From: Actinostola sp. cb2023
Taxonomy: Eukaryota > Cnidaria > Anthozoa > Actiniaria > Actinostolidae
DNA: 64,000 bases
Reading direction: 5' to 3'
NCBI GenBank assembly: GCA_033675265.1
Contig: JAUJYZ010000103.1
Location: forward strand, 150,611 to 214,610
In this document: piece by piece, positions 35,948-57,843 of the stretch
Layout of the letters: the number at the start of each line of letters is the position of its first letter
Position numbering within the stretch: position 1 is the stretch's first letter
The notes under the pieces: generated by a model
What the model was told of the DNA's origin: nothing
The model's input: the letters and a program-made list of their open reading frames with translations, nothing else
Databases searched by the model: none
Made by a program: the position numbers and the translations under genes

Positions 35948-35975
35948 AGTAATATTCACTATTAATTATATATAA

Positions 35976-36605: not shown

Positions 36606-36628
36606 ATATATGTATATATAGTATAATA

Positions 36629-37219
36629 ATGACTTCAATTCTAGATGAGTATATGGATGCTGAAAAATTAGATACTATCCCAGAAGAACCTGTAGTAGTG
36701 GAAAAGAAAGGACGAAAGAAGAAAGTACCTGTTAATAAAGGTGATGACTTAGAGGTAGAGGAGAGGCGCGAACAATTGTGTATTCTTTCGGTGCTTGGTA
36801 CTATAGATCAATACACGGGAATTAGAATGTCCCTTGGTGATGATAAGAGGTTATCGATTATTGATGTTAATAAATATTATAACAGATATCAACTTATTAT
36901 GGGGAATATGGTAACAAATAGCTTAGTTAATGGTTGTATTGAGGGTTTTGTTGAAGCTATTGCTTATGCGGTTCCTATCGATAATAAAAATGAGCTTTGT
37001 AATGATCTTAAAAACAATGAAATGCTACGACAGGAGTTGAATAATGCAGCTGGATTTGCAATTTTACGAGGTGGTAGATTTGTGGCTCTCTCCAGTTGCT
37101 TACTTCAAATAGGAAAACATATTAAAATTACCAATGGTGATGATAATTGGTTACCACCTGTAATAACACAAGATGATCAGGTTAACAATATTATTGATAA
37201 AACTCTTGATTTGTCTTAA
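36629..37219 (+). CDS. Polinton protein of unknown function (196 aa)
   Basis: Intact ORF 23 bp after the ATPase, preceded by ATATATAGTATAATA. Residues 1-50 are charged with a basic patch (EKKGRKKKVP); the rest is predicted globular and mostly helical, with a YAVPIDNKNELCNDLKNNEM segment and an ILRGGRFVALSS motif. No signal peptide or transmembrane helix. Position in the capsid/ATPase cluster suggests a structural or DNA-associated role, but I do not recognise a family with known activity. Not a cysteine protease: no HxE/D plus QC arrangement is seen. Confidence 0.75.
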   Translation: MTSILDEYMDAEKLDTIPEEPVVVEKKGRKKKVPVNKGDDLEVEERREQLCILSVLGTIDQYTGIRMSLGDDKRLSIIDVNKYYNRYQLIMGNMVTNSLVNGCIEGFVEAIAYAVPIDNKNELCNDLKNNEMLRQELNNAAGFAILRGGRFVALSSCLLQIGKHIKITNGDDNWLPPVITQDDQVNNIIDKTLDLS

Positions 37220-37222
37220 GAA

Positions 37223-37321
37223 CCTCTTGAACATCTCTTGAGCATCTCTTGAGCACCTCTTGAGCACCTCTTGAGCATCTGTTGAGCATCTGTTGAGCAT
37301 CTGTTGGAACTCTCTTGGAAT
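37223..37321. repeat. 11-bp tandem repeat inside the polinton
   Basis: Nine units of CTCTTGAGCAT-type (variants CCTCTTGAGCA, TCTGTTGAGCA) lie between two genes. It is the longest non-coding gap of the plus-strand cluster before 40,769. Confidence 0.9.
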
Positions 37322-37361
37322 TTCACTTAAAATATTATTCTTATATAATAGTATATTAAAA

Positions 37362-37721
37362 ATGTCAGAAGAATCAAAAGATATAATTACCAAAGAACCG
37401 GAAAATCCAATTATAAAACAAAAAGACCCTAAGAAGGTTGCCGCTGGTAAAAGACTAGCTGAATATCATAAAAAAGCTAAGAAAGCTCTTGAAATAGAAA
37501 AGAATCATGAAACTGAAGAAGAAGAAACATCTAATTCATGGACGCCAGAAATATCACTAACAACAGCATTGACACTAGTTGGAATAAGTCTAACAGCTAT
37601 AGATTTATATTTTAGATGGAGAAATAATAAAAAAGTAAATACACCTGTGAAAACCGCTAAAATGGAAGACATCACACCTGAAACTAATAAAATTCCTATA
37701 CCAAGAATAGGTATGGAATGA
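37362..37721 (+). CDS. Small polinton membrane protein (119 aa)
   Basis: The start is taken at 37,362, directly after TATATAATAGTATATTAAAA; an in-frame ATG at 37,293 lies in the tandem repeat and would precede the promoter motif. Residues ~1-60 are strongly charged (KKVAAGKRLAEYHKKAKKAL, likely helical), then one hydrophobic segment (LTTALTLVGISLTAIDLYF), then a basic and polar tail. Single-pass membrane topology is inferred. Function unknown; such small membrane proteins are common in polintons. Confidence 0.75.
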   Translation: MSEESKDIITKEPENPIIKQKDPKKVAAGKRLAEYHKKAKKALEIEKNHETEEEETSNSWTPEISLTTALTLVGISLTAIDLYFRWRNNKKVNTPVKTAKMEDITPETNKIPIPRIGME

Positions 37722-37763
37722 AAAACTATATAAAAAATAAAATCATTATTAAGAATATATAAA

Positions 37764-37982
37764 ATGGAAAACAAATTGATTAAATCAGTTACCGATGCTG
37801 CTGTAGTTGTTGGAATCGCTGCAGTAATTGGTTATGTCGGAAAAAAGGCTATGAAAGAATCATTCATCAACGACCCTAGTAGTAGTCTAACAAATTATGG
37901 AAAATGGGTGCTAGTACTATCTGGAAGCATGTATGTTAAACAATATCTTGAAGATCAAAAAATTCTTCCAAAATCACTCTAA
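37764..37982 (+). CDS. Small polinton membrane protein (72 aa)
   Basis: Intact, preceded by AAGAATATATAAA. A hydrophobic stretch at ~11-27 (AAVVVGIAAVIGYVG) and a weaker one near 47-58 (WVLVLSGSMYV) suggest one or two membrane passes. No recognised family. Follows the previous gene by 42 bp. Confidence 0.7.
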   Translation: MENKLIKSVTDAAVVVGIAAVIGYVGKKAMKESFINDPSSSLTNYGKWVLVLSGSMYVKQYLEDQKILPKSL

Positions 37983-38019
37983 TCATTTAAAATAATAAGT
38001 TCTTAGTTAATAATATAGA

Positions 38020-38448
38020 ATGGCAAGCGCAGTTATTATGATGGTCGCTGGGGCTGTTTTGAATGCAACAGCTTTCACCGGTTCAATGTATTTAGCAAAA
38101 TCCCTTGGAACTGATGGTAAACATGTTGATGAAGAGAAAATTAGACATGATAAGGCTATAGAACTTTATCAGAAGAATATGGGTGAATGGCAAAAGAAGA
38201 AACAAGAGTATGAAGAATGGTTGGAGATGCAATATAAGAATAAACAAATAGCTGATAGCAATCTATCTGATACTGATTATGCTTTTAGGATATACTCCAA
38301 GGCACATCCAGATTTTAATTTGAAAGAACCACAATTAGGTGATTATTATAAACCTAACAAAAAACAAAAACAGTATGAAATGATTATATGTGGGTGGTGG
38401 TATGTTAGGAGCAGGGTATTTAGCATCGAAATTTATATAAAAAACTAA
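38020..38448 (+). CDS. Polinton membrane/coiled-coil protein (142 aa, C-terminus frame-changed)
   Basis: The N-terminus is hydrophobic (VIMMVAGAVLNATAFTGSMY), followed by a charged helix (YQKNMGEWQKKKQEYEEW, coiled-coil-like). The last ~20 residues in this frame (CGWWYVRSRVF...) are atypical. The next frame from about 38,390 reads a glycine-rich hydrophobic tail (GGGMLGAGYLASKFI) ending at 38,440, which looks like a proper C-terminal membrane segment. I infer a one-base insertion close to 38,388 in this copy. Promoter-like TTAATAATATAG precedes the ATG. Function unknown. Confidence 0.7.
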   Translation: MASAVIMMVAGAVLNATAFTGSMYLAKSLGTDGKHVDEEKIRHDKAIELYQKNMGEWQKKKQEYEEWLEMQYKNKQIADSNLSDTDYAFRIYSKAHPDFNLKEPQLGDYYKPNKKQKQYEMIICGWWYVRSRVFSIEIYIKN

Positions 38449-38465
38449 CTATTAATATATAGTAT

Positions 38466-39479
38466 ATGGAAGTCGATAGTTTAGATTTTGATCCACTTGA
38501 AACAGGGTCTGAAGATATAAACACCCCTATCACAAATGATGAACTAGAGGAATTATTACCACAACAAAAAGAAAATAGACACACTTGGTGGGAACGAACT
38601 AAAGAACGGTTTAGTAGAAGGGGTATATCAAGAGAACGAGGATATAAATTATTTAAGAACTCTGATGAAAGCAATGAAGATTGGGAAATAAGGGCAAGAG
38701 AAGACATAGAAATGGTAGACCTTGCTAAACATAGTGAAGAAAGAGTTGAAGAAGCTTGGGATAGAATCAAAACCAAGTATCCTAATGTAAATCCTAAAAA
38801 CTCTCCATTCGTCACTACAATTGATGAATATGATAGAGTGATAGTAAGATTTAATAGACTGGGCAGCAAACATCATGTTCTGTTTAATGCTGAGGGTGAA
38901 TTAAATGGTAAGTTACCTAAAACAATTGTAAACTATCTTGGTGATCCTGCTGAAAAAGTTGTTGAGAATAATGAAAGAACTATATTTTCACATCGAGAAA
39001 AATTACAAACATTAGAAGAAGAATTGGATAATATATCTCAAGCTGGCTCTAATGATGTTAGAGAAAGATTGAATATATCACTCCGTGAACAGATTGAGGA
39101 AACTAGAAATGAGATTGAACAATTAGAAGAACAAAATGAAGTAATAGAAGGGCGAATGTCTCTGAGAGATCGTATAAAAGCTGTTTTTAAAAAGTATGGT
39201 TTTACTGTTTTTTCTGTTGTATCTGCAGTTGGTATTATTATTGGTGTTATTATTTCTAGTCTAAAAAGCGGATTATCTTCGGTTGCCAGCGGTGTTGGAA
39301 ATAGTTTGAAATCAATAGGTAAAAAATTAGCTCAGATACTACCTGGCATGGTTGGTGCAATAGCTTCTTTTATTTTCAGAACCGCGGGTGAGGTTATTAG
39401 TTTCTTAGCTAAAAACGCTTGGTTATTGATAGTTGCTGTTGTTTTGTATTTTGTTGAAAGATATAAAAAGAAAAGATGA
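38466..39479 (+). CDS. Polinton coiled-coil membrane protein (337 aa)
   Basis: Intact ORF after TTAATATATAGTAT. Order: acidic N-terminus (1-35), a WWERTKERFSRR segment, a mixed region to ~170, a coiled coil at ~175-230 (LQTLEEELDNI...EQIEETRNEIEQLEEQNEV), then three hydrophobic segments: VFSVVSAVGIIIGVIISSL (~248-266), a glycine/serine amphipathic linker, LPGMVGAIASFIFRTAGEVI and a final NAWLLIVAVVLYFVE before a KKKR tail. A coiled coil beside membrane segments would suit a virion membrane or membrane-remodelling protein, but that is speculation. From memory this C-terminal arrangement recurs in many cnidarian polintons. Confidence 0.78.
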   Translation: MEVDSLDFDPLETGSEDINTPITNDELEELLPQQKENRHTWWERTKERFSRRGISRERGYKLFKNSDESNEDWEIRAREDIEMVDLAKHSEERVEEAWDRIKTKYPNVNPKNSPFVTTIDEYDRVIVRFNRLGSKHHVLFNAEGELNGKLPKTIVNYLGDPAEKVVENNERTIFSHREKLQTLEEELDNISQAGSNDVRERLNISLREQIEETRNEIEQLEEQNEVIEGRMSLRDRIKAVFKKYGFTVFSVVSAVGIIIGVIISSLKSGLSSVASGVGNSLKSIGKKLAQILPGMVGAIASFIFRTAGEVISFLAKNAWLLIVAVVLYFVERYKKKR

Positions 39480-39492
39480 TTATATAGTATAA

Positions 39493-40137
39493 ATGGTAAT
39501 ATTGTATATTGAAAAAACAAAAGCAGATGAAACTATTTGGTTTAAAAATCCTATTAAAAAGAGTACACGTATATCACTTGTAAGTTGTAGTTTTTATAAT
39601 GAAATATATAATCTTGTAGGTGATGGATTGATTTACTATGATGAAAAGAAGTTTGTTATTATTATTCCGCCGGGGTATTACACACAGAATATATTTAAAC
39701 GTGTTATAGATGCGTTGAAAGTTAGTGACAAAGTCTCCATCGAACTATTGAATACCGGAAAAATGATGCTCATAGCCAATCAGGCTGTAACACTAAACCC
39801 GGGTTTAGCTAAATTATTAAACATCTCAATAAACCTTGAACAAAATTCAAGAAATGTTATAAATATTATTCAACCTACTCAGTATGCACTATATTTGTAT
39901 TGTGATCTTATTGATTCTACACAGGTTTTATTAAATAATAAATATTCACAAATATTAGCATGTGTTGAATTAAACAAGGTTGGAGAAAAACTAACCTATC
40001 ATCCTAATAATACCCTGTACACACCTATTAAAAATGATGATTATATTAATAGTATTAGGGTTTGGGTTACAGATTCTAGTGGTAAGAGCATTGATGCTGG
40101 AATATATCCAATGATGATGGTGATTGAAATCATATAA
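39493..40137 (+). CDS. Polinton minor capsid / penton-like protein (214 aa)
   Basis: Intact; the ATG follows TTATATAGTATAA. Predominantly beta: repeated short strands, a PPGYYTQNIFKRVIDAL motif (~57-73), YALYLYCDLIDS (~132-143), ILACVEL and a terminal RVWVTDSSGKSIDAG...MVIEI strand pair. That order matches the single jelly-roll minor capsid (penton) proteins of polintons as I recall them, which fill the five-fold vertices. No membrane segment. Being intact while the major capsid gene is broken is noteworthy. Confidence 0.72.
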   Translation: MVILYIEKTKADETIWFKNPIKKSTRISLVSCSFYNEIYNLVGDGLIYYDEKKFVIIIPPGYYTQNIFKRVIDALKVSDKVSIELLNTGKMMLIANQAVTLNPGLAKLLNISINLEQNSRNVINIIQPTQYALYLYCDLIDSTQVLLNNKYSQILACVELNKVGEKLTYHPNNTLYTPIKNDDYINSIRVWVTDSSGKSIDAGIYPMMMVIEII

Positions 40138-40162
40138 AATAATAATATGTAGTATTATATAT

Positions 40163-40768
40163 ATGGTTGATTATGATATGATTTATCCGGAAGTACCAGA
40201 AGTACAACAAACTGGTGAAAACTTCAGATTACACAAAATAAATATGGTTATATCTCAATTAGTAACGGAGATAAAACATTACGAAAATGTTAGGAAAAAA
40301 TATAGTAAGATACGTGGTATACTTCATAAAACTGCAGTTGCAACAGGAGTCTTATCTGTCATTTTAACCGGTTCTGGTGTAACTACTAGTTTAACAGGAC
40401 CTGGGATCATTATCGGTGTTCCTTTATCGGCTGTTGGCGGGTTGTTAGGTTTAATATCAGCTAGTTGTACAATTTTCACGAAAAAACTTACTAAAAAGGT
40501 AACAAAACATGAAAATACTATTCAGCTTGCAAAATCAAAAGAAGATAGTATATGTGATCTTGTATCAAAAGCCTTGAGCGATAACAAGATTGATGAGAAA
40601 GAATTTGAACACATTATGACTGAACTCAAAAAATATGAAAAACTAAAGAGTAGTATTAGGGTGAAACGGAATAAGGCTTTTTTTAAAAACGATGTTCCAG
40701 ATGTTCAAAAGATGAGGGAGGAACTGAGAAAGGAGATTGTAGACCAGCTCATAAATCCAAAGAAATAA
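40163..40768 (+). CDS. Polinton two-helix membrane protein (201 aa)
   Basis: The start is set at 40,163, directly after GTATTATATAT; an in-frame ATG at 40,124 lies inside the preceding gene and upstream of the motif. A helical N-terminal region (to ~60) leads to a glycine-rich hydrophobic hairpin (~65-115: VATGVLSVILTGSG, then GPGIIIGVPLSAVGGLLGLI), then a charged helical tail with LVSKALSDNKIDEKEFEHIM. The pattern recurs in cnidarian polintons from memory; biochemical role unknown. Loosely reminiscent of SLATT or pore-type topology, which I would not claim. Confidence 0.75.
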   Translation: MVDYDMIYPEVPEVQQTGENFRLHKINMVISQLVTEIKHYENVRKKYSKIRGILHKTAVATGVLSVILTGSGVTTSLTGPGIIIGVPLSAVGGLLGLISASCTIFTKKLTKKVTKHENTIQLAKSKEDSICDLVSKALSDNKIDEKEFEHIMTELKKYEKLKSSIRVKRNKAFFKNDVPDVQKMREELRKEIVDQLINPKK

Positions 40769-40819
40769 CTTTATCCTTTGATACAACACCTTACGGAGGG
40801 TATATATATAAGTTGCGAT

Positions 40820-40930
40820 ATGATAGATGTTAAAAGGATAAAACTTATAATATTAAAAATAGTATTATTAATTTGTTTAACAGAAATTTCGATTAATATT
40901 TTAAAGTATTTTATGAGAGAACCAATATAA
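40820..40930 (+). CDS. Putative 36-residue hydrophobic peptide
   Basis: A short ORF in the otherwise empty gap between two polinton genes: basic start (MIDVKRIK), a hydrophobic helix (LIILKIVLLICLTEISINIL) and a short polar tail ending REPI. A TATA element, GGGTATATATATAAG, lies about 10 bases before the ATG, comparable with the other genes. The combination suggests a real single-pass membrane peptide, but conservation has not been tested. Confidence 0.45.
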   Translation: MIDVKRIKLIILKIVLLICLTEISINILKYFMREPI

Positions 40931-40960
40931 TATAAAACAATAATAACATATATATATTAT

Positions 40961-42502
40961 ATGGTAACAAAAGAAGATATTGAATTAAAAAAATATTATC
41001 CGCAACACATAGATAATAAATTTCATGCTTATAGGGGTGGTATTAATTTCGATTGGAATGGTGTAGCCTATGATGTATTCAAGAAGGATATTGGGGGTCC
41101 TGTACACCATTATGATGATCCTATCGTTGAACATGCGTTAACTAAGGCGTTGGGTAAACGAATTGATAATACACTGAATAGTCAGATTCCTAATGATTTC
41201 CTTAGTAGTAGGTTTCCAAAAGAATTAAAAATGATTGAAATATTATACCCTGTTATATGCACCCCTTTTGATAAAAAACCTCCAAATTTTAATCCAGTAG
41301 AGATTGATATCTATGTCAAACCTAGTCAGAAATTTACTATAAAACCACGAAACATATTTACTAATCTTGTACTAAAACATGTTACTCAAAAAGAATCAAA
41401 TAAATGGTTGGAAGGTCCTGATATGTCATACTATCCACAACAACTGGCATTTTCAGTCTGGTGTGCAAGTTCTGGTTGTGGTGTTGGAATTGATATGCTA
41501 ACAAAATATACTCCTATGATAAATTCATTGCTCAAATTTCATATCCTCTTCACATCCAGAAGGATATTGGCACAAATGAATATTCCACTACCTGGAGATC
41601 AATACTTTACAAACATTGATAATAAATATAATAAGGCTGGTTATGACAAAGCTTGTCGTGAATTTAATATATCTAGAAATAGCGATTTTAGATTTACTGC
41701 TGATGAGAATGGTGGTTTAGGTCGGTTATACAAGAAAATATTTGATGAGGTAGATGATGTTACAGATGTTTATAATGAAAAAATGGATGGCCTTTTTACA
41801 AATAAATGGCCAAGAGGAAAATTCAAATTCGAAGATGAAGGCTCGTACGGTGGTAATAAACTTGATCATATAAGTCCGTTGGAAAAGCATCCGTACCTAT
41901 ATTTTATGCTAAATGAATCAAAAGGTTTAACCAGAGCCGGACTATCACGATTAAATCAATCGATTGAGGCGTTTGTGTATTGTATTCTGGGAGCTCAAGT
42001 ACAAACCCGATCAAGCATTATTGGTAATTCTGGTTCTGCACAAGAAACACAAACGGTGTTTTTACAACTATTTGAAAGTAGTATAATTGAAACAGATATT
42101 TCTAAAAGTATACAGAGATATCAACTAGCTATTCAACAATCAAAAGAAAAACTAGATCTGGCTATTGCTGTAGGCTGTTGGTTACTACCATCTAGTCTTG
42201 TTATAAATAATAATTCTGTTCATGGATACAATAATAAATTGGTAAGAGCTTCTGCGGATATGAAATTTGGTGTGAATGATATTAATTCTGAAACCAAATC
42301 TATTAGTATAAAACATAACTTGGGTACCTCTAAGGTAAAACTACCACATCAAGATATAAAAAAGATTAACACGGTTGATAAACCTGATAAGATAGATAAC
42401 TTCCATAAACCAACACCAACACCATCTTCAAAAAAACATGAAAATAATTTAATAGTTCTAACTATTGGTACAGCAGGGTTAGCTTGGTATATTTTTCGGT
42501 AG
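40961..42502 (+). CDS. Polinton large protein of unknown function (513 aa)
   Basis: Intact ORF after ACATATATATATTAT. Conserved-looking segments: FHAYRGGINFDW (~22-33), LAFSVWCASSGCGVGIDML (~163-181), LLKFHILFTSRRILAQMNIP (~191-210), GLSRLNQSIEAFVYCILGAQ (~333-352) and WLLPSSLVINNNSVHGYNN. A Pro/Ser/Lys-rich stalk (~465-495) ends in a single hydrophobic C-terminal segment (LIVLTIGTAGLAWYIF), a tail-anchor arrangement. I recall this protein as frequent in cnidarian polintons without assigned function; it could be a surface, vertex or scaffold protein. It is the last plus-strand gene; 42,503-42,622 is AT-rich with an A run (42,586-42,596). Confidence 0.78.
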   Translation: MVTKEDIELKKYYPQHIDNKFHAYRGGINFDWNGVAYDVFKKDIGGPVHHYDDPIVEHALTKALGKRIDNTLNSQIPNDFLSSRFPKELKMIEILYPVICTPFDKKPPNFNPVEIDIYVKPSQKFTIKPRNIFTNLVLKHVTQKESNKWLEGPDMSYYPQQLAFSVWCASSGCGVGIDMLTKYTPMINSLLKFHILFTSRRILAQMNIPLPGDQYFTNIDNKYNKAGYDKACREFNISRNSDFRFTADENGGLGRLYKKIFDEVDDVTDVYNEKMDGLFTNKWPRGKFKFEDEGSYGGNKLDHISPLEKHPYLYFMLNESKGLTRAGLSRLNQSIEAFVYCILGAQVQTRSSIIGNSGSAQETQTVFLQLFESSIIETDISKSIQRYQLAIQQSKEKLDLAIAVGCWLLPSSLVINNNSVHGYNNKLVRASADMKFGVNDINSETKSISIKHNLGTSKVKLPHQDIKKINTVDKPDKIDNFHKPTPTPSSKKHENNLIVLTIGTAGLAWYIFR

Positions 42503-42622
42503 ATTTATACAACCATCAATTTCACAAGCTATAATAGACTTGTGATTTCCTACTATTACATTTTTAATTATTAATTAGTAATGTAACAAAAAAAAAAATA
42601 TCAATCAATTATAACTATTTTA

Positions 42623-43249
42623 TTATTTTAATTCACGTAATTTACTACGATCCTCTAATAAGTTTGGTAAATCACCAGGTTTTAACCCATACTCATAAGG
42701 ATTGAACCCCTTGTTATGAACCCATACGGCCTTATTAATTTTTCTTCTTATAACAGTATTGGTTAAAGCTTCTTGGACTGTAGTATTAAAATAATATTCT
42801 AATTTAATTTTATCATTTTTAAATGTTAATAGATTTCTTCTAATACTAATTAATTTAAGATTATAATTTAAAGCTGAATTTGATAAAGTTTCTAGGAATA
42901 CTTTAATATCCTTGCTTTTCTCATAACCTGAAGTACCCTCATTATAATGGTTTAATTTTGGTAGACTGTCAATGAAAATAAAATGATTACACTTACTAAA
43001 TAATGGGTCTTTGACTGGTTTAAAATCCCAACCAGCGCCGAAATATACTAAGGTATACCCATCTTTATTTGTTTTTAGATTTGATACCTTTATTTCAAGT
43101 ACTGATTGATCTAAAATATTACTAGACATAAAAAATGATTTTGGTTGTTTTTTAATTGGGGTTATTTTCTTTTTCATACTTGTTTTTTCAGGTACTGATT
43201 TTATAGGTTTTTTAATTGGGTTTATCTTCTTTTTCAATGTCGAACTCAT
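42623..43249 (-). CDS. TIR-proximal polinton protein sharing its N-terminus with PolB (208 aa)
   Basis: Reads inward from the right TIR, mirror image of PolB. Residues 1-~55 are lysine/proline-rich with an internal near-duplicate (KKKINPIKKPIKS and KKKITPIKKQPKS), then FFMSSNILDQSVLEIK, almost identical to PolB residues ~15-30. The rest (~60-208) differs: YTLVYFGAGWDFKPV and HFIFIDSLPKLNHY resemble the start of a Rossmann-type fold (a methyltransferase-like YxGxGxD...D arrangement), but no catalytic motif is firm. The shared N-terminus arises because the TIR covers the 5' coding ends of both genes. Confidence 0.7.
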   Translation of the reverse strand: MSSTLKKKINPIKKPIKSVPEKTSMKKKITPIKKQPKSFFMSSNILDQSVLEIKVSNLKTNKDGYTLVYFGAGWDFKPVKDPLFSKCNHFIFIDSLPKLNHYNEGTSGYEKSKDIKVFLETLSNSALNYNLKLISIRRNLLTFKNDKIKLEYYFNTTVQEALTNTVIRRKINKAVWVHNKGFNPYEYGLKPGDLPNLLEDRSKLRELK

Positions 43250-43554
43250 TAGTATACTATTCTATACCATAATATTTTTTTTAATAATAAACGCACTCCA
43301 GGATTAATTTGATAATATCAAGAGATGTATACTATGGAAAGTACTATTTCTTAAAATAAACGCACTTACTTTATTCCCCGTTTTTGGATTTAACATATTT
43401 GATATAACGTAAAGGATTTTCGATATAGATTATACTAAATTGAAATCCTTTATTGTTGAAATAAGGGCATCATATACTTTTATTCTAAAATATGATGGAT
43501 CATTGAGTAGTAGTTTTATGCAAAGTGAGCTCGAATCGGCCATTGCCTACTACT
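43250..43554 (-). repeat. Right terminal inverted repeat of the polinton
   Basis: 305 bp complementary to 29,644-29,947. Similarity continues into the coding region of the minus-strand gene to about 43,088. Its inner end carries the same GGTATAGAATAGTATA promoter-like element. Confidence 0.95.
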
Positions 43555-43942: not shown

Positions 43943-43961
43943 ACTCGGGCCTAGCCCGAGT
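43943..43961 (+). mobile_element. Solitary Helentron-like 5' terminus
   Basis: ACTCGGGCCTAGCCCGAGT, a perfect 19-bp terminal palindrome after TT and followed by TAGAAAATAC, as at the other 5' ends. A second 5' terminus begins 55 bp further on. Confidence 0.6.
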
Positions 43962-43997
43962 TAGAAAATACACTTTCTTTTTTTTATTTTTATTATT

Positions 43998-46900
43998 ACT
44001 CGGGCCCTTCCGAAGGAAGCCCGAGTTATAAAATACAAATTCTTTTTTTTTTTTCATGGTCATAGAATGCGAAGTATTTGATCGTATCGAGTTTCAAGAT
44101 TACTCCTGAAGCAGATAAGGGAAGACAAACGAGACACAAAACTCAAGTAGATTTGAATCTTAGTTTTGAAAGCAGCTGTAAATCTTGAAGCTATCGAAAG
44201 GTCAGGATTCTAGTTCGCTATGTCATGTTTGTTATTAGGCGACATTGGATCCCAGATTAGGCCTTTAGTTGCTAATTATAATAGTACGTGTACAGTTATG
44301 TCCTTGAGTATTTATAATTGAACTCACGACCAGCGATGTAACTACATCTAATACGGAAAGCTATATGTACAGAAGTCATGCAAACAGTCGAGGCAGTCGA
44401 GACTGAAAAGCAAGCCATCGAAACGCATACGCTTACTACATACCAGATACGCATACTCTAAATCTTCCTCGAGCGTTTTCGAAAGGGCTGTTCTACGACT
44501 TCATTCCACGAACTCGAACTCATCAAAAAACGAACTGAAAATCAAATGAAATGAACTCAAAAACTATCATGACCTCGCTATGTCATGTTTGTTATTAGGC
44601 GACATTGGACCCCAGAGTAGGCCTTTTGTTGCTAATTTTGATTTGCTCTCGACCATATATCCATTGTCAATGAAATATTGTCAATGGCAATAAAGCTCGA
44701 TCGAGCAAGAGGCCGCGCGCCGTAGACTAATGCATCAAACATGTAGGCAAGGTACCGTGCAGAATACTTACACATGTAGATTGTACGTGTTGGAATGTTT
44801 CAGAGATAGATTATAAAGATAACAGTGATCTAATCTGTTTATTCAGCGAAAACCGTGCAGAATACGATTGTACGTGTTGCAATGTTTCAGGGATAGATTA
44901 TAAAGATAAAACACTATGGTTTAGAATGATCATAAAGTATACAGGGCGCATGCGCTGTAGAGCCCAATATGCTTTCTGGGGTCGACGAAGAACGCTCAAA
45001 ACAGGTCAGTGAACGGCAAAAATACAAAAGAAGGTGCTCAATGAGCGTATAGTCGGGCAATATGACAATGACAGTTGCGTGACGAGGAAGGATATTTGTG
45101 TCGGTGAACATCGATAAAGATCTTCGACTCTTCGATACGTTTTTAAACGTAATTGAGGTCACTTGAGGGTGCATATTAATGGCGCCAAAAACGGATCGAA
45201 TATTTCCGAAAGCCTATCGACCTAAATCCGAAAGTATGATTCGCTCAAACAGTTTGCGAGCGTGTATCGAACGTAATCCGAATTATTGTTCGCTCAGGAC
45301 AGATACTGAGATAGTGCTAAGTCATCGTATTCGACGACTAGAAGTGAAAGAAGCAGTTGACCCTGTGCAGAAGAAAAATTATGTTGTATTCAAGGCAAGC
45401 CATCCATCGGTTCCTCTTAAATACGCTCTCACATACAAACGCATACGCCGATTCGTGTGGGCCAACTCTAAAAGATGTTGAGCGTTTTCGAAAGGGCCTT
45501 TACACGAACTCATCAAAAGCAAATCAATTGAAATTAAAGTCAAAAGGTAAACAATTGAACTCAAGCTCAAAAGCAAATCAAATGAACTCAAGAACTATAA
45601 TACAAATGAACTCTAATGTTGACTTAAATGTGAACTCAACTGAGTACTGCCTAGCCAAGCATGTATATCACAACTTGAAGCCAGATGTACTGATTCAGAA
45701 GTGTGATTCCAACACGTACATGAACAAATCCAAAGGTGAGAAAACAACTTTGAAATCGCATCAAGAAGAACACAAATCTGATTCGAAAATGAAGTCAATG
45801 ATCCTTGTTTACATTCTGTTTATATTTTTTATTGAGTTAATCTTGTTAAAAATAGTATTTTTCTATATCAAAGAGAGAGTTTTAATGCAGTGCATATACC
45901 GTCGTTATCACCGTCATACCGTCATGGCCAACGATCAAGGTGAACAAGCAAGTTTGACTGAAAATAGACTAAGTGCTATAGATGCCTTTGTAAATATATC
46001 TGAAGCCAGTGTACAAGTTCAGCTGAATGTCAATAATGATGAATTAAATACAATAAACAATGTAAGATCTCCGTCACTATGCCATGTTTGTTGCTTGTGA
46101 TAGTACTTGCACCGTTAGTAATAGTAGTAGAATACACCGCCATGCTCATCGTGATCGAGAGCCAAGCAGAATTTCTTTCAAAAGCTTGACGTCTATTTTC
46201 CGAAAAAGTAGGAAATTAAGAAAGTACATTCGACGTATCATCAAGAAACAGGTTCTAGCATCGTCAAATATTCATCTTTTTCTCAAGAATATACGTATTA
46301 TTGCCCTGAATGTCTACTCTTACTCTGATGTTAAATGCAAAGTATACTACAGAAGTAGAATACATTCTTTCAGCAAAACTATTTATGGTGTCGGCAACAA
46401 TTTATAATCTTAAAGGGTTTGAAAAGAAATTTTAAAGTAAAATCCAATGCAATAATATCACAATATATGGTTTCCCACAAAAATCTTAATCACAGGAAAG
46501 TATTGTGTCAATCTGCATTGTGTACAGATGTAGAGAAAAATCCTGGTCCCACTCCATTGATTGATCCCAATAAAACAGTAAAGGCACCTTATAGTCAAGG
46601 TAGTATTGTGGTATTTGGTCAAAGTGTAGGACAACAGTGTGTAGCTATGTCATTATGTGCAATTTTAGAGATCTGGAGTTGTTTTATTAACACAACAAAA
46701 CTCAATTTTCAGTAAAATTTTCAGTTTATTGGACATCCAACAAAGATGCTTGGAAGACTCTTCTTGGGTGAGCTTACAAATCAGTGAAGACTTCACATAC
46801 GTTTTTGACGCTAAAAACGGCAGGTTCTTTCTCTTATCAGTCAAACCTGCCTCGAAGTCGAACGGTCGTATAAACAGTATGAATAAATTATATTATTCTT

Positions 46901-47437
46901 ACGAGGGAGAGAGCTCAAAGTGCAAGAGAGACCTACGGACAGACATAACTATACAAGCGGTATTAAAAAAATATCCATAGGGGGGGTTGCAACCCCCAGA
47001 ACCCTCCCCCTGGATCCGCCCCTGGATACTAAGATAGTTTTAAGCCATCGTCTTCGAAAACTAGAAGTATAAGAAGTAGTTGATCTGGCCAAAAGGTAAA
47101 TTATCTTGTATTTAAGACAAGCCATCCACAGTTCTTCTTAAATACGCTCTCACATACAAACAACATACGCCGATTCGTGTGGGCCAACTCTAAAAGATGT
47201 TCAGCGTTTTCCACTGGGCCTTTACACGACTGAACTCATAAAAATTAAAGCAATTCAATTGAACTCTAAGTCAAAACGTTATCAAATCAACTCAAACTCA
47301 ACAGCAAATCAAATGAACTCGACACATATATACATAGTCTCCCTCGTCACGCAACTGTCAGTCATTGTCCGGTCTCTCCTCACGCAACTGACATTGTCCT
47401 TATCATAAGCCCGAGTATACGCTCATTGAGCGTCTTG
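43998..47437 (+). mobile_element. Helentron/HINE-like element 1 (3.44 kb) with decayed 2A-type gene
   Basis: The 5' end is a 29-bp hairpin starting ACTCGGGCCCTTCC and followed by TATAAAATAC. The 3' end has the inverted copy GCCCGAGT (47,409-47,416), a hairpin ACGCTCATTGAGCGT (47,419-47,433) and CTTG. T lies on both sides (43,997; 47,438), with no target duplication. The interior includes segments repeated at 47,460-47,830, 48,660-48,830, 62,760-63,000 and 63,170-63,520 (AGTTTCAAGATTACTC; TACAGTTATGTCCTTGAGTA), and a decayed coding region at 45,179-46,980. A degenerate inverted 3' end at 45,033-45,058 indicates nested or rearranged copies. The end structure agrees with what I recall of Helentrons; no Rep/helicase is present. 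Confidence 0.55.
45179..46980 (+). pseudogene. Decayed mobile-element gene with a 2A-like peptide
   Basis: Coding remnants run through several frames. 45,179-45,481: basic segment (RIFPKAYRPKSESMIRSNS). 45,481-46,100: Asn/Lys/Ser-rich repeats and a membrane-like helix (MILVYILFIFFIELILLKIV). 46,084-46,407: basic segment. 46,419-46,715: LNHRKVLCQSALCTDVEKNP then GP, i.e. a 2A-like DVEKNPGP at 46,527-46,550, followed by KAPYSQGSIVVFGQSVGQQC and VAMSLCAIL. 46,729-46,980: residual frame. 2A peptides cause ribosome skipping before the final Pro. The part after it recalls proteins I associate with papain-fold/deubiquitinase-like domains next to PIF1-type helicases in fish and cnidarian repeats, with the QQC as candidate nucleophile. 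Frame changes and short frames show it is dead here. 47,030-47,260 is a second, shorter copy of 45,310-45,500. Confidence 0.5.
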
Positions 47438-48576
47438 TTATTATTTTTTTCAGGTGAAGGAATGACAAAAAAATGCGAAGAATGCGATGTATTTGATCCT
47501 ATCGAGTTTCAAGATCTTCAAGCTATTAAGTTCAGGATTGTAGTTGATCATTCCACGATGAAGCTAAGGCGCGTTTGCTTTTGTTATAAATGAAACGACA
47601 TCTTTCAGAGTGGGCCCACACGAATAGCCGTATGCTTTTGTCTGTGAAATGAGCCTGTTTAAAGCCCGTGTTTTATCGGCTGTTCTATAACGCCTTTCCA
47701 CGAACTCGAACTCATATCCAAAAATGAATTGAAAAGCAAATGAACATGACCTCGCTATGCGATGTTTGTTGCTTAATTGTAATATTACGTGTACAGTTAT
47801 GTCCTTGAGTATTTATAATTAAACTCACGACCAGCGATGTAGCAACATCTATTGACAGAAAGCTATATGTACAGAAGTCATGCAAACAATCGAACCAGTC
47901 GAGTTATTTTCAGTAACTCACGATGGATGTTTATTTTATTCCACGTTTGAAAAATTCGTGTTCTTTTCAGTAAGATGACAGTTGTAAAGTGATCCTTATC
48001 TGAGTCATACATCTATTAGGCGACCTAATTTTAGAACCGTTGATTTAAAACCGAATTTCCACGCTCAAAACAGGTCAGTGAACGGCAAAAATACAATCGA
48101 AATCAAAACGTCCTTAGATTTTAGGGATCTATTACAGAAGAAGACGCTCAATGACGAGGGAGAATTGTGTCTGACTCATAGATAAAGATCTCCGCGGACT
48201 CTTGTTATAATTAAACTCACGACCAACGCCGGTCATGTATAACTCCATCTATTGACAGAAAGCTATATGTACAGAAGTCATGCAAACAGTCGAGCCAGTC
48301 GAGTTATTTTCAGTAACTCATGATGGATGTTTATTTTATTCCACGTTTGAAAAATTCAGAAGAAAAAGGAATCGTAAAAATCGTACTTCAAAACTACATC
48401 AAAGCATTTAAGGAAAGCAAGGTCAATAGTTCGTAAATCGAGATCGTATAGCCCTTCATCTGGCAGACATATAGTCTCCCCCTCGTCACGCAACTGTCAG
48501 TCATTGTCAGGTCTCTCCTCACGCAACTGACATTGTCCTTTTCATAAGCCCGAGTGTACGCTCATTGAGCGTCTTG
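47438..48576 (+). mobile_element. 5'-truncated or rearranged Helentron-like copy
   Basis: Contains interior motifs of element 1 (47,470-47,530; 47,790-47,910; 48,205-48,310) and ends with GCCCGAGT (48,548-48,555), hairpin ACGCTCATTGAGCGT (48,558-48,572) and CTTG. No matching 5' hairpin is visible at its start. No gene. Confidence 0.5.
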
Positions 48577-48578
48577 TT

Positions 48579-49388
48579 ACTCGGGCCCAGGCCGCAGGCC
48601 GCCCGAGTTAGAAAATGCGTTTTTCGGTAGTAGTAGTCGTAGTTTTTTTAGTCGGTTAAAGAATGACGAAAGTATGCGACGTATTTAATCGTATCCGGAG
48701 TTTCAAGATTACTCCGCAGATTTGAAAAGATAAAGGAGACACAGGACTCAAGTAGATTATGAATCTTAGTTTTGAAAGCAGCTGTAGATCTTCAAGCTAT
48801 TAAAAGGTCAGGATTCTAGTTCATCGTTCAATGACTAGAAGTGGTAAAAGGACTAGAAGCTCGCTTAAAATATATATTTTTTTAAACAAACGCGAGGCCG
48901 TTATCGGAACCATCTGACCTATGCAACCTCAAGACGTATCATGTTCGTACTCACCGGACTAATAGTCTCCCTCGTCACTCAACTGTCACTGATTGTCATG
49001 ACGTCAGAGAAATTATATTGTATTGAAGAAGATGTCCTTGTTTTATTCGACGTTCGAACCGTAACTCGAACCCGAACTCGATTCCAAACTCGACGTTTCG
49101 GGATCTGAAGCTAGATCCCGAAACACAAACTCATCAAAATCAAATCAATTGAACTCAAAGTCAAAAGGTAATCAAATGAACTCAAAGGCAAATCAAATGA
49201 ACTCGACACATACATGTATATACATAGTCTCCCTCGTCACGCAACTGTCAGTCATTGTCAGGTCTCTCCTCGCGCAGCTGACATTGTCCTTGTTCTTCAA
49301 CCAACTGGCATTCATTTTCAAGTACTTCCTCGAACAACTGACATTTTCCTTTTCACAATGCCCGAGTGAACGCTCATTGAGCGTCTTG
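48579..49388 (+). mobile_element. Helentron/HINE-like element 2 (810 bp, complete ends)
   Basis: Starts with a 30-bp hairpin (ACTCGGGCCCAGG...GCCCGAGT) only two bases after the previous copy's CTTG, and ends GCCCGAGT, ACGCTCATTGAGCGT, CTTG. T on both sides. The interior has the shared AAGATTACTC segment at the left and the CTCCCTCGTCACGCAACTGT segment at the right; it is non-coding, so the copy is non-autonomous. Confidence 0.65.
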
Positions 49389-49398
49389 TTATAATATA

Positions 49399-49440
49399 CA
49401 AGACGCTCAATGAGCGTATACTCTGGCATTATTGAAAAGG
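49399..49440 (-). mobile_element. Inverted 3' end, tail-to-tail with element 2
   Basis: CAAG then ACGCTCAATGAGCGT (49,403-49,417) then ATACTCTGGC: the complement of the 3' structure, only ten bases from the end of element 2. The body on the right (49,440-49,789) is unrecognised. Confidence 0.6.
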
Positions 49441-49789
49441 ATAATGCAGTAGACGAAATGATATGCCTGTAGGCTTAATCGCTAAATGTTATAACCAAAC
49501 AAACCAAGACGCCTCCCGTAGCTAGACAAAGTCTCAGACAAGTGATCGAATTTCGTAGTGACCTCAACACAACAAGAATGTGCAGGCCGACGTTATCAGA
49601 ACCATCTAAGCATGAACATACGTCCTAAGTACGTAATTTAGACGAAACTCGATGATTCGCAGATCTCTATCTCTGCTCACCGACGCACACCATATATTGG
49701 CAGAACAAGCCATTGCTATCTCAAAATTGACAGATGAAGCGGAGACTATAAAGTCATCCTTCCATGACAAGCTCAACACGAACATTATT

Positions 49790-50226
49790 AGTCGGGCTTC
49801 CTGTGGAAGCTCCGACTCTAAAAATGAGAAGCGTTCTTTGTCGTCGTTGACCTCAAATCCAGCGCATGCGCCCTGTGCCGGCCGAAGGAGACATGAAGTC
49901 TGGCCAAGAAAGATTAGAAAGCACAAACCAATCAGGGAAAGCACCGGAGGTCAAGGGGCCAACATATAAGTCTTTTGTCGTCTAAGTCTAAATTTAGATT
50001 GAAACAGGACGCTCTAGTAGCGTGAAGCCGGGCTATTAACGTTTTTACTGATATACTGTAAAGTTCGCAGTACTGAAATTGCAAGGAAAGCATGTTCTAT
50101 CGAGCTCGAGTCACGCAACGACGAGCAACCAAACACTGTTTTAATCGCACTATAAGATATCTATATTTAGTTCAAATAGGTTACATTTCATTTAGAAGCC
50201 CGACTTCACGCTAGAAGAGCGTCTAG
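49790..50226 (+). mobile_element. Helentron/HINE-like element 3 (437 bp, second subfamily)
   Basis: Starts with a hairpin AGTCGGGCTTCC...CCGACT followed by CTAAAAATG. The 3' end has GCCCGACT (50,198-50,205), hairpin ACGCTAGAAGAGCGT (50,208-50,222) and CTAG, then TT. The subterminal repeat matches the altered 5' end (AGTCGGGC), so the two ends have co-varied relative to elements 1 and 2. T flanks both sides. An inverted, degenerate 3' end at 50,005-50,033 lies inside. Related 5' end on the minus strand at 52,190-52,284. Confidence 0.6.
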
Positions 50227-52100: not shown

Positions 52101-52189
52101 CTACGCTACAAGCTCGTCGTTCAATAACTCGGCAGTCTCACTCAGCAATATCCGAGCCTTCGATGTATCTAAGCGGCCGAAACAGGGCG

Positions 52190-52284
52190 CATGCGCATTA
52201 GAAGCCGCTTTGACGTTTGAAGTCAAAGAACGACGACAACGAACGGTCTGCATTTTTAGACTTGGGCCTTCCACAGGAATCCCG
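52190..52284 (-). mobile_element. Helentron-like 5' end, minus strand
   Basis: Read on the minus strand: ACTCGGGATTCCTGTGGAAG, then CTAAAAATG, with GCGCATGCGCCCTGT further in. It aligns with the first ~90 bp of element 3. Confidence 0.55.
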
Positions 52285-52492
52285 AGTAAGGGCAAAGAAA
52301 AAGAACCGCGCTAATAGGCGACTTGCATGATGGCGTCATATACTACAAGTACTAGAATGCTTTGCCCATTTTCTTTTGTTAGATAATTAGTACCAATTGT
52401 CTTACTATTCTCATGAGCGAATACAAATCTGAAAGAAAATTTCCCAAAGCATTCTGGTACTTGAAGACGAAATAACCCCACGTTAGAATATA

Positions 52493-53601: not shown

Positions 53602-56530
53602 ATGTACTTGTAGTAAAACAACGTCATAGTGCAAGTCGCCCGTTTGGCAATTTTATACAAAACACTAATAATCAGACGCAATTCTGAGTCATCTCGTCCG
53701 CGCTATCCAGTAGTACAGATTTCAGATTTTTTTTCAGATTTTTATTCCATTTACACCATTTTTTTTACAATATGAATTAATACACAAGTACACAAGTAGC
53801 TTCGCAGTCAACGAGGGAGAGTAAAGTCGGATATTGTAACTGTTGTTATGGAAATTTCTGGACAAACACAGTCCTCTGGTTAAAGTGTATATGACACGAA
53901 TTTTTTTCTTTTGAAAATCGATTACATATGAAGTGAATAGTGGGATGGTTCAGTATTTTGTGATTTGAGCTTCGCATTGGCGAGTTATAAAGCTTTGAAA
54001 TCGTGATATGCTAATTCGGTGACGTCAGAGTGGGTTTTGCCGAAACTTATTTGTATTTTTCCAAGCAGTACTCTTTTCTAAAATAGAAAAACAAAATGAA
54101 CATCATGTATATCAATTGTAGAAAACTTTTTGCCAGATTAAAAAAATTCAATAATTTGAACAATGGCGCTTTTTTGTATAATAAATTAAACCCACTCTGA
54201 CGTCACCGAATTACCATATCACGATTTCAATCCTTTATAACTCGCCAATGCGAAGCTCAAATCACAAAATACTGAACCATCCCACTATTCACTTCATATG
54301 TAATCGATTTTCAAAAGAAAACATTTCGTGTCATATACACTTTAAGTACAGTGATCGGGAATCGATACTCTTTGTTATGTTTTCATTGTTCTTTATCTTT
54401 TAGATACAAAAAATATATATCCTCCACCACCTCCCCCAACCCTGAACTAGATGCTTAGTTTAAATATTGAAAATCAACAAATATATCAATAAATAAAGAA
54501 GAACATCCGTAAACCAACCTTTCCATTTCCTATAGTTTTTTCTGGTGAGTGGATGCGTTCATGTGCTCTACAATTACTGCTATATTTCAATGTTTTACTA
54601 CGATGCATACACTTGTGTAGAATTTTCTCCTGAATGGATGCGTTCATGTGTTCTACAATTAATGTTATCTTTAAATGTCTTACTACAATGCTTACACGTG
54701 TATGGCTTTTCTCCTGAATGGATGCGTTCATGTGTTTTACAACTACTGGTATGTCTAAAAGTCTTACTACAATGCTTACACTTGTATAGTTTTTCTCCTG
54801 AGTGGATACGTTCATGACTTCTACAATCACTGCTATCTGAAAATGTTTTACTACAATGCTTACACTTGTATGGCTTTTCTCCTGAATGGATGCGTTCATG
54901 ACTTCTACAATTACTGTTATCTTTAAATGTCTTACTACAATGCTTACACTTGTATGGCTTTTCTCCTGAATGGATGCGTTCATGTGTTCTACAACTACTG
55001 CTCCGACTAAATGTCTTACTACAATGCTTACACTTGTATGGCTTTTCTCCTGAATGGATGCGTTCATGTGTTCTACAACTACTGCTCCGACTAAATGTCT
55101 TACTACAATGCTTACACTTGTATGGCTTTTCTCCTGAATGGATGCGTTCATGACGACTACAATCACTGCTATTTGAAAATGTTTTACTACAATGCTTACA
55201 CTTGTATGGCTTTTCTCCTGAATGGATGCGTTCATGTGTTTTACAACCACTGCTATGTCTAAATGTCTTACTACAATGCTTACACTTGAATGGTTTTTCT
55301 CCTGAATGGATGCGTTCATGCGTTATACACTGACTGCTCTGTCTAAATGTCTTACTACAATGCTTACACTTGAATGGTTTTTCGTCTGAATGGATACGTT
55401 CATGCGTTATACACGGACTGCTCTGTCTAAATGTCTTACTACAATGCTTACACTTGAATGGTTTTTCGTCTGAATGGATACGTTCATGCTTTCTACACTG
55501 ACCAATCTGTCTAAATGTCTTACTACAATGCTTACACTTGAATGGTTTTTCGTCTGAATGGATACGTTCATGCGTTATACACGGACTGCTCTGTCTAAAT
55601 GTCTTACTACAATGCTTACACTTGAATGGTTTTTCGTCTGAATGGATACGTTCATGCGTTCTATACTGACCAATCTGTCTAAATGTCTTACTACAATGCT
55701 TACATTTGAATGGTTTTTCGTCTGAATGGATACGTTCATGCGTTATACACTGACTGCTCTGTCTAAATGTCTTACTACAATGCTTACATTTGAATGGTTT
55801 TTCTCCTGAGTGGATGCGTTCATGCACTGTACAAGTATTCTTGTATCTAAATGTCTTGTTACAGTGACTGCAGTGATATTTCTTTGTAATTACTTCAGCA
55901 GGGCAGTCATTTTGACCACTTGGAATTTCAAATGTTTCACCAGGCAATGGATGAGAAACACTGCTTCGTGACCTCAGATTATATTTTGATGCTTTGCATA
56001 TTGGATTTCCTTCATCTGTTCTATCTTCATCGGTGCAGTTTATCTCTGCTTCAATTTCATTCACTGTGTTGTCTAAGCTCCCGCATGCACCATCAGTCTC
56101 ATTAGAATTACTTGATACTCTTCGTGCTGTCACTTCATTGTCATCTACATCAACATCATCCATAAACACATTGGTGTCATCAATTACACTGGTCTGCTCA
56201 CTTCCTCCTGGTACTTCTCTTACCAGATTACTCTCTTGCAAGAAAGAACCATTCTCTGCATACATGGACGTACATCCATTACTACAGCCAGTATCATCAG
56301 TCTGTATTGCTATACTGTTATTCTTGTTGGTTTGTAGCAACTCACCATCAATAGTTTCACCCATGCAATATTCCTAAAGAAACAATAAACAAGATAAACA
56401 AAGGTACAGTAAATGCTTGAAATAGTTCCCAGCTTGAAATACGTCCCACTGAACATTCTAGTACCCAGAGCCCACACCTCATTTGGTATGTCGTCAATGA
56501 AGAGTGGGCTCTGGATACGAGAATGCCCCA
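53602..56530. repeat. Segmental duplication, copy B
   Basis: Collinear with 9620-9850 plus 12,246-15,250. At 53,830-53,840 the sequence goes straight across the position where copy A holds the 2.3-kb fold-back transposon plus ~75 bp. Contains the palindromic MITE copy (53,880-54,345) and zinc-finger gene copy B. Confidence 0.85.
54598..56364 (-). CDS. C2H2 zinc-finger protein, copy B (588 aa)
   Basis: Acidic N-terminus (~1-165; same MGETIDGELLQTNKNN start as copy A) followed by 15 uninterrupted C2H2 fingers with [10 protein letters not shown] or [10 protein letters not shown] linkers. Almost every finger has Cys at the helix core position usually occupied by Leu (pattern F-x5-C-x2-H); one has Tyr. 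Helix contact residues vary between fingers (RQSSQCIT, RQIGQCRK, SRSSSCRT, KDNSNCRS), as expected for sequence-specific DNA binding. The frame ends SGENSTQVYAS. Just beyond, in another frame (54,486-54,600), lies one more finger whose first Cys pair has become CMHRS, so the last finger has been lost by a frameshift. The ATG follows the acceptor TTTATTGTTTCTTTAG. Target unknown. Confidence 0.8.
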   Translation of the reverse strand: MGETIDGELLQTNKNNSIAIQTDDTGCSNGCTSMYAENGSFLQESNLVREVPGGSEQTSVIDDTNVFMDDVDVDDNEVTARRVSSNSNETDGACGSLDNTVNEIEAEINCTDEDRTDEGNPICKASKYNLRSRSSVSHPLPGETFEIPSGQNDCPAEVITKKYHCSHCNKTFRYKNTCTVHERIHSGEKPFKCKHCSKTFRQSSQCITHERIHSDEKPFKCKHCSKTFRQIGQYRTHERIHSDEKPFKCKHCSKTFRQSSPCITHERIHSDEKPFKCKHCSKTFRQIGQCRKHERIHSDEKPFKCKHCSKTFRQSSPCITHERIHSDEKPFKCKHCSKTFRQSSQCITHERIHSGEKPFKCKHCSKTFRHSSGCKTHERIHSGEKPYKCKHCSKTFSNSSDCSRHERIHSGEKPYKCKHCSKTFSRSSSCRTHERIHSGEKPYKCKHCSKTFSRSSSCRTHERIHSGEKPYKCKHCSKTFKDNSNCRSHERIHSGEKPYKCKHCSKTFSDSSDCRSHERIHSGEKLYKCKHCSKTFRHTSSCKTHERIHSGEKPYTCKHCSKTFKDNINCRTHERIHSGENSTQVYAS

Positions 56531-57144: not shown

Positions 57145-57843
57145 CTCTACCAGCTCAAAGTCAAAGAGCCAAACAAACAAACAAAGTCAAAGAAACAAAC
57201 AAACAAACAAAGTCAATGAGCCAAACAAACAAACAAAGTCAAAGAGCCAAACAAGCAAACAAAGTAAAAGAGCCAAACAAACAAACAAAGTCAAAGAGGC
57301 AAATAAACAAACAAAGTCAAACAAACAAACAAACAAACAAAGTCAATGAGCCAAACAAACAAACAAAGTCAATGAGCCAAACAAGCAAATAAAGTCAAAG
57401 AGCCGCCAAACAAACAAACAACGTCAAAGAGCCAAACAAACAAACAAAGCCAAAGAGCCAAACAAACAAACAAAGTAAAAGAGCCAAACAAACAAACAAA
57501 GTCAAAGAAACAAACAAAGTCAAAGAGCCAAACGAACAAAGTCAAAGAAACAAACAAAGTCAAAGAGACAAAGAAGCAAACAAAGTCAGAGCCAAAGAAA
57601 CAAACAAAGTCAAAGAAACAAACAAAGTCAAAGAAACAAACAAAGTCAAAGAAACAAACAAAGTCAAAGAAACAAACAAAGTCAATGAGCCAAACAAACA
57701 AACAAAGTCAAAGAGCCAAACAAACAAACAACGTCAAAGAGCCAAACAAGCAAACAAAGTCAAAGAGCCAAACAAACAAACAAAGTCAAAGAGCCAAACA
57801 AACAAACAAAGTAAAAGAGCCAAACAAACAAACAACGTCAAAG
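57145..57843. repeat. 22-bp minisatellite, second array
   Basis: Same AAAGTCAAAGAGCCAAACAAAC-type unit as 15,255-16,145; Lys/Gln/Asn-rich frames over it are artefacts. It is split from the short piece at 61,604-61,885 by a 3.76-kb insertion. Confidence 0.9.

Follow-up and report, generated by a model that had tools for sequence, protein, structure and literature searches.

Helitron2 elements, as described by Bao and Jurka in 2013 (PMC3627910), carry asymmetric terminal inverted repeats (ATIRs) of 8-15 bp, the 5' copy lying within a 5' hairpin and the 3' copy upstream of a 3' hairpin, 20-30 bp from the end. They display a 5' T and have T-rich sequence in front of the insertion point, which in Chlamydomonas lies between TTTT and T/C. 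A compensatory change was recorded in one element pair, and 5'-3' pairing was put forward as the event that opens the 5' hairpin and fixes the replication end. In this study, a swarm of elements sharing this organization was analysed in a 64,000-nucleotide stretch of the cnidarian Actinostola sp. cb2023 (hereafter the window; contig JAUJYZ010000103.1, positions 150,611 to 214,610, with all positions below counted from its first letter). Their best overall explanation, to which we assign a probability of about 0.95, is that they are non-autonomous HINE-type Helentron/Helitron2 rolling-circle elements whose end codes would be recognised by the Rep-helicase-endonuclease of relatives and which insert at TT. 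They differed from published Helitron2 elements by five octamer codes in one genome, a TT target and many exact head-to-tail stacks.

Resemblance to Helentrons and HINE/DINE-1 elements (Thomas et al. 2014, PMC4067079) was equally clear. Shared features are a RepHel protein with a C-terminal endonuclease and a GSPHxH signature, subterminal inverted repeats, a 3' palindrome, insertion within TT and abundant non-autonomous copies. Mite HINEs, however, have T runs of variable length and 12-15-bp repeats that lie some 38-60 bp away from the 3' terminus, whereas the Actinostola elements carry an 8-bp repeat 22 nt from the end and mostly exact TT junctions. Likewise, FoHeli elements of Fusarium (PMC5148889) are comparable through their Helitron2-type ends, nested and adjacent copies and joined-end circle product, and Helentrons with deubiquitinase (VTD) or OTU domains (PMC9741609), of which the VTD type was reported in cnidarians, through the OTU domain and the PF04843 domain found in relatives described below.

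Helitrons in tandem are not new either. Tandem and adjacent copies are mentioned for bat, silkworm and maize (PMC4067079), tandem insertions of Helitrons or their derivatives are cited for bat, Drosophila, rice and maize, and three tandem copies are reported in Metarhizium (PMC5148889). In maize, as in our elements, a precise joint between the 3' end of one Helitron and the 5' end of another, different one was described and explained by consecutive insertion, and bat cases are cited along with it (PMC2267711). Yet those were canonical Helitrons, with one maize and several bat cases, while 209 junctions keeping the TT target were counted here. The Fusarium adjacent insertion is a single one, 2 bp apart, and no genome-wide junction count appeared in the available part of that paper (PMC5148889). 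A literature search through titles and abstract starts retrieved no description of the present family and no genome-wide count of exact junctions. Since the architecture, Helentrons and HINEs, TT insertion and head-to-tail Helitrons were all described before, the finding is a new family of a known kind, rich in end codes and stacks. By the same token, the covariation of ends put forward in the original prediction was real but not new in kind, both architecture and compensatory change having been published in 2013 (PMC3627910).

Elements of the window and their ends

An end-pattern search located the 5' hairpins and 3' termini of three elements on the forward strand, at the limits initially proposed: element 1 (43,998-47,437, 3,440 bp, defective), element 2 (48,579-49,388, 810 bp, non-autonomous) and element 3 (49,790-50,226, 437 bp, non-autonomous). 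Their CTTG or CTAG termini close at 47,437, 49,388 and 50,226. The octamer pairs also proved to be as claimed, i.e. ACTCGGGC/GCCCGAGT in elements 1 and 2 and AGTCGGGC/GCCCGACT in element 3, which belongs to the CTAG subfamily. Asymmetric terminal inverted repeats, a criterion of Helitron2, were thus present, the 5' one within the terminal hairpin and the 3' one upstream of the 3' hairpin. The 3' end of element 1 (47,409-47,437, forward strand) is representative, with octamer GCCCGAGT, a 15-nt hairpin and CTTG. This hairpin had been announced as one of 15 bp; the hairpin itself stands, but it is a 15-nt palindrome rather than a 15-bp stem. Predicted folding energies were -10.6, -12.1 and -11.3 kcal/mol for the 5' hairpins of elements 1, 2 and 3, and -5.5, -5.5 and -5.2 kcal/mol for their 3' hairpins, the last value being just weakly better than shuffles (z -1.9).

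A fourth element, overlooked at first, encloses element 1. Element 0 (43,943-48,576, forward strand) is a non-autonomous Helentron-type element whose own sequence amounts to about 1.19 kb; element 1, nested in its T-rich part, divides it in two. Its own parts are 43,943-43,997 and 47,440-48,576, and the TT at 47,438-47,439 is assignable to either element. It starts with a 5' hairpin at 43,943 and its 3' end (48,548-48,576, forward strand) carries GCCCGAGTGTACGCTCATTGAGCGTCTTG. The ends at 43,943 and 48,548 had been taken for solitary ones; they are the two ends of this single element, because an uninterrupted 1,024-bp sibling in locus L024 spans both parts, aligning to 43,953-43,991 and 47,444-48,576 at about 95%. 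Altogether four sibling copies were without insert at the position of element 1. Directly downstream, element 2 sits on the 3' TT of element 0, with only this TT between the two.

Octamer codes at both ends

Genome-wide, a search for the 18-nt pattern of the 3' hairpin, with at most 2 mismatches tolerated, gave 2,961 forward and 3,077 reverse matches in the 424-Mb assembly, 6,038 in total, against 11 and 15 (26 in total) for the reversed control, so the pattern is not due to chance. Codes were examined in fetched loci, mostly picked where several 3' ends lie close together, with a structure scan looking for a 5-bp stem, a loop of 4-8 and CT[TAG]GT, and upstream for TT followed by a complementary octamer in a hairpin. 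There were 72 candidate 3' ends, 41 of them with a complementary partner: ACTCGGGC in 33 pairs, AGTCGGGC in 3, ACTCGGAC in 2, and ACTTGGCG and ACTCGTGC in one each. Reversed sequences yielded 16 candidates and no partner. A sixth partnered code, AACTATTT, occurred in one pair and was set aside as likely spurious. The co-change of octamers noticed in the window was therefore wider than claimed, with five codes having their complementary partner at the other end; as complementarity is required by the scan, the figures tell which codes are present rather than how strictly they match.

Strictness was addressed by a second test in which the nearest upstream hairpin was taken regardless of its octamer. 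Exact matches were found in 34 of 45 pairs, distributed over four codes (ACTCGGGC 29, AGTCGGGC 3, ACTTGGCG 1 and ACTCGGAC 1). The permutation mean was 25.3 and none of 20,000 permutations was as high, a comparison which overstates the number of events because related copies are not independent. An honest count of covariation is about five codes and not 34 events, since copies of a subfamily share ancestry.

Other parts of the ends varied as well. In the structure scan, CTTG terminated all 33 ACTCGGGC pairs and CTAG all three AGTCGGGC pairs, CTAG being also the terminus of two other codes. In the sister element C912, the 3' stem is altered on both sides (ACCCT..AGGGT versus ACGCT..AGCGT).

A further subfamily was recorded at L021 (7,405 and 9,378), L015 (8,675) and L027 (minus strand, 2,452), its 5' hairpin reading ACTCGGGC...GCACGAGT. 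At other loci, a 3' GCACGAGT precedes a degenerate hairpin and CTAG, and the first 5' arm of this subfamily would not match it exactly.

Rep-bearing relatives

The original prediction called for a search for a Rep/helicase element with the same ends. A 12.3-kb element (C766:263,420-275,695) has such ends, those of element 2, and contains between them DUF6570 and a frame of 1,940 aa with Rep, which provided the Rep part of that expectation but not the helicase. A 2,395-aa frame with 2A/protease and Rep matches occurs in C926, which is probably an intact copy of the C766 type. The sister family is represented by a 13.6-kb element (C912:305,167-318,739) with octamers ACTCGTGC/GCACGAGT and an open 2,566-aa frame displaying a 2A motif, OTU, DUF6570, Rep, PIF1 and an endonuclease domain (Exo_endo_phos). 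Scanned against Pfam as two fetched pieces, this single frame contained both Rep (PF14214, E 2e-35) and a PIF1-type helicase (PF05970, E 4.6e-25). Its endonuclease part shared 50% identity over 286 aa with Exaiptasia P0009, whose record lists PF03372; a sequence search of the PDB with this part retrieved PIF1 at low significance (best E 0.016) and no endonuclease.

The Rep signature IEFQMRGSPHLH of both C912 and C766 reads GSPHLH, with S between G and P, which is the Helentron form (IExQxRGSPHxH in PMC4067079). PF14214 had 138 listed matches genome-wide. Of 288 Rep relatives, the best 120 were considered, and those ranking highest with a species name were anthozoan (Acropora, Exaiptasia, Dendronephthya and Oculina, 69-83% identity), followed by hydrozoans and a sea urchin. 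This is a weak pointer to an anthozoan host, since transposons may pass from one species to another. The PF04843 tegument-like domain was present in many protein relatives. The frame after the C766 Rep was considered as RPA and rejected, being a resemblance only, without Pfam support.

TT target and empty sites

End statistics were compiled from the fetched loci after dropping the overlapping L007, L008, L033, L037 and L038 and counting identical ends once. Following CT[TA]G, T was the first base in 70 of 70 3' ends and the second base in 66 of them, the other four having C (3) or A (1). Each of the 36 5' ends had TT immediately upstream of the octamer, although these ends had been detected without requiring TT. 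The flanks, first described as a T on either side, are TT on each side; as empty sites carry a single TT, an insertion adds the element and two T.

Empty sites, a check also proposed initially, were searched with the joined flanks of 30 insertions against the fetched loci and the window. A match across the junction was obtained for 18 of the 30; most were self-related or gapped, and matches of this kind, in tandem context or with gapped T-rich junctions (L019, C766, L024), were excluded. Five were counted as clean, all paralogous, and all showing a single TT before and TT...TT after insertion. The empty site of the L001 insertion lies in the window itself (26,684-26,812, forward strand), within a repeat copy matching at 85% over the joined flanks and gap-free at the junction. 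Three others were clean in aligned sequence (L028 versus L012, L011 versus L017, and L013 versus the interior of window element 1) and the last is a gap-free BLAST row (L015 versus L011). L028 and L013 had been flagged by an automatic gap test, the difference lying some bases beyond the junction, across which the sequence is continuous.

Assignment to Helentrons

The name Helentron-like, chosen from the window sequence, was appropriate, considering the Rep of C766 between the same ends, the Rep, PIF1 helicase and C-terminal endonuclease of C912, and the TT sites. The ends, the code matching, the TT target and the Rep-bearing element with the same ends are direct observations, and two other classes were weighed against them. 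Canonical Helitrons (Helitron1) are defined by 5'-TC, CTRR-3', a single 3' hairpin and insertion between A and T. A CTAG terminus and a 3' hairpin do occur in some subfamilies here, but 5'-TC is lacking, a 5' hairpin is present, the 3' terminus is mostly CTTG, the target is TT instead of AT, and the S in the GSPHLH of C912 and C766 is the Helentron form, which makes this class very improbable. Hardly more credible are miniature inverted-repeat transposable elements, i.e. small transposons with terminal inverted repeats moved by a DDE transposase and generating a 2-bp TT duplication, in spite of the fact that TT at both ends and a single TT in empty sites are what such a duplication would leave. 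The asymmetry of the inverted repeats, terminal at the 5' end and subterminal at the 3' end, speaks against this class, as does the Rep encoded by a full-length relative with these ends. Moreover, the 70/70 versus 66/70 T at bases 1 and 2 looks more like an element T followed by a target base. This uneven conservation (4/70 versus 0/142 non-T, Fisher p 0.011, small sample) favours a terminal T at each element end over a TT duplication, the two being not fully separable.

A number of points weigh against the Helentron assignment, besides the non-independence of copies mentioned above. TT on each side of the insert is equally expected from a 2-bp TT duplication. Consequently, of the proposed absence of duplication, what stood was that empty sites hold a single TT and that no longer duplication was counted; strict absence is not established, because TT duplication at TT targets gives the same picture. 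Other candidate empty sites were unclean: L019 differs in a T/A tract, the partner site of C766 is without 7 bp at the junction, and the L024 candidates are neighbouring duplicates. In the nearest-hairpin test, 11 of 45 pairs were inexact: five involved unrelated hairpins, including those nearest to window element 1 and C912, and six, with 1-3 differing bases, possibly represent wrong pairings or decayed copies. Finally, C766, with the same ends as element 2, has lost the helicase part, and the Exo_endo_phos match of C912 (E 1.3e-4, 22.3 bits) lies under the Pfam curated cut-off of 24.5.

Head-to-tail stacks

Since the fetched loci are biased to clustered 3' ends, stacks were assessed with genome-wide counts only, for which the 6,038 matches of the 3' hairpin pattern served as denominator. 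The exact junction AGCGTCTWG-TT-ASTCGGGC (3' end-TT-5' end) occurred 209 times, its control giving 0. With spacers of 0-8 allowed, 243 junctions were found (controls 0 and 1), so that the spacer was exactly TT in 209 of 243 (86%). Among the first 100 listed of these 243, there were 88 TT, one CT and 11 spacers of 5-8 bases, and none of 0, 1, 3 or 4 bases. With 6,038 elements placed at random over about 89 million TT sites, chance would account for about 0.4 junctions (TT density being taken from the window and 6,038 applied to both ends). Mere regional clustering would scatter spacers across neighbouring TTs.

Junction types were compared in the first 100 listed of the 209: CTTG to ACTC 58, CTAG to ACTC 16, CTAG to AGTC 15 and CTTG to AGTC 11. 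Taking CTTG and ACTC as marks of one type and CTAG and AGTC as marks of the other, as holds for the ACTCGGGC and AGTCGGGC pairs of the structure scan (where CTAG also terminates two other codes), 27 of these 100 are mixed. An array in C657 (340,700-344,300) lines up five elements, four of 474, 448, 775 and 778 bp and a fifth represented by its start. Its two AGTC units are 90.8% identical and its two complete ACTC units 98.3%. Given the 27 mixed junctions in 100 and the identity of no more than 90.8% between the C657 AGTC units, at least part of the stacks is explained by elements inserting repeatedly at one border.

How far this extends was considered under three explanations. Tentatively, resident Helentron ends might be preferred landing sites: Rep would re-open the border TT and join to it an element of any code, and stacks would grow unit by unit, the code pairing the ends and the TT border setting the landing. 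That a single element instead gave rise to the junctions by rolling-circle concatenation or read-through, without repeated insertion, is in our opinion doubtful. Units of one type adjoin each other more often than expected (58 and 15 of the first 100 junctions listed; odds ratio 4.9, p 0.0011), as concatemers would, and the neighbouring C657 pair at 98.3% is of the same tenor; yet neither the 27 mixed junctions nor the 90.8% identity of the C657 AGTC units, with ACTC units next in line, agrees with them, and in the window elements 0 and 2 differ. It is also rather unlikely that the 209 junctions go back to few events, with a small number of stacks arising a single time and being multiplied whole as composite units. 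Transposition past the first 3' end (end bypass) is known for Helitrons (PMC5148889), but four junction types were present among the first 100 listed.

Origin of the window copies and other features

Element 2 displayed 92.9% identity over its first 182 bp and 97.0% over its last 99 bp with the Rep-bearing C766 element; it is, by these alignments, a deletion derivative of the C766 type. Over its full length, it is 97.0% identical to the L002 copy, other full copies reaching about 94-97%. The last 346 bp of element 3 were 95.5% identical to the L025 copy.

Element 1 is more composite. Its outer parts match the L020 copy (43,998-44,940 at 94.6% and 47,025-47,437 at 92.1%). Between them, 45,283-46,661 (forward strand) is a remnant derived from an element bearing Rep, namely from its 5' coding region, with the 2A motif TDVEKNPGP followed by a VFGQSVGQQCVAMSL stretch, and is 93.2% identical to positions 765-2127 of the C766 element. 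A relative of this remnant in L010 matches the Rep-bearing frames of C766 and C926: a 96-aa piece of it is 100% and 98% identical, respectively, to the frames of 1,940 and 2,395 aa that continue into Rep. A second piece (46,763-47,024, forward strand) derives from a C912-family 3' region (93.9% to positions 13249-13508 of the 13573-bp C912 element). Element 1 is thereby a chimera of a C766-type coding remnant, a C912-family 3' piece and L020-like outer parts, the C912-family piece being a sign of template switching or nested insertion. In contrast to Helentrons with VTD or OTU domains (PMC9741609), it retains only a fragment, and a Pfam scan of its 68-aa piece gave no match, its 250-aa frame giving below-cut-off matches only.

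The remaining ends first listed as solitary were partly confirmed. Minus-strand ends exist near 49,399, 50,005 and 52,284, while at 62,697 and 24,218 the pattern search found the octamer of an end and nothing more. The 3' end at 49,398-49,427 (minus strand) belongs to a degenerate copy with one mismatch to the end pattern, and that at 50,004-50,033 (minus strand) lies inside element 3 with two mismatches. At 52,154-52,289 (minus strand) is the 5' end of an AGTC-type copy, forming an inverted repeat with 49,788-49,848 (82%) and 79% identical to L025.

From its open reading frames (protein-primed type DNA polymerase, integrase, packaging-type ATPase and others), region 29,918-43,261 is presumably Polinton/Maverick-like. 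Three frames with a common N-terminal start, EYCMGETIDGELLQTNKNNSIAIQTDDTGCSNG (13,707-15,095, 22,523-22,888 and 54,598-56,373, the last on the minus strand), form a local gene family; two run into zinc-finger arrays and the middle one is truncated. Low-complexity frames with KQTNKVKE-type repeats occur at 15,549-16,081, 57,376-57,879 and 61,728-62,117. An RNA reading of the window was discarded, the sole Rfam match at gathering score being a weak tRNA (60,477-60,548). Outside the window, L015 (C21:21,000-30,900) displayed near-identical elements with the same flanks on both strands, i.e. an inverted locus duplication or an assembly feature.

Proposed mechanism and significance

A possible course of transposition can be outlined. 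The Rep-helicase-endonuclease of full-length relatives would act on a short code at both ends, consisting of the 5' octamer folding into the terminal hairpin and, immediately upstream of the 3' hairpin, the complementary octamer. One strand would be copied and then inserted at TT, and the 5' and 3' octamers may pair, thus marking where replication ends. Further elements, those of other subfamilies included, would land at the TT borders and build the head-to-tail stacks whose junctions were observed, presumably because each inserted element presents TT there again.

With thousands of copies and at least five octamer codes in one host, this family offers material for testing the termination idea of 2013, namely 5'-3' pairing. 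Its 209 exact junctions likewise provide material for separating repeated border insertion from rolling-circle concatemers.

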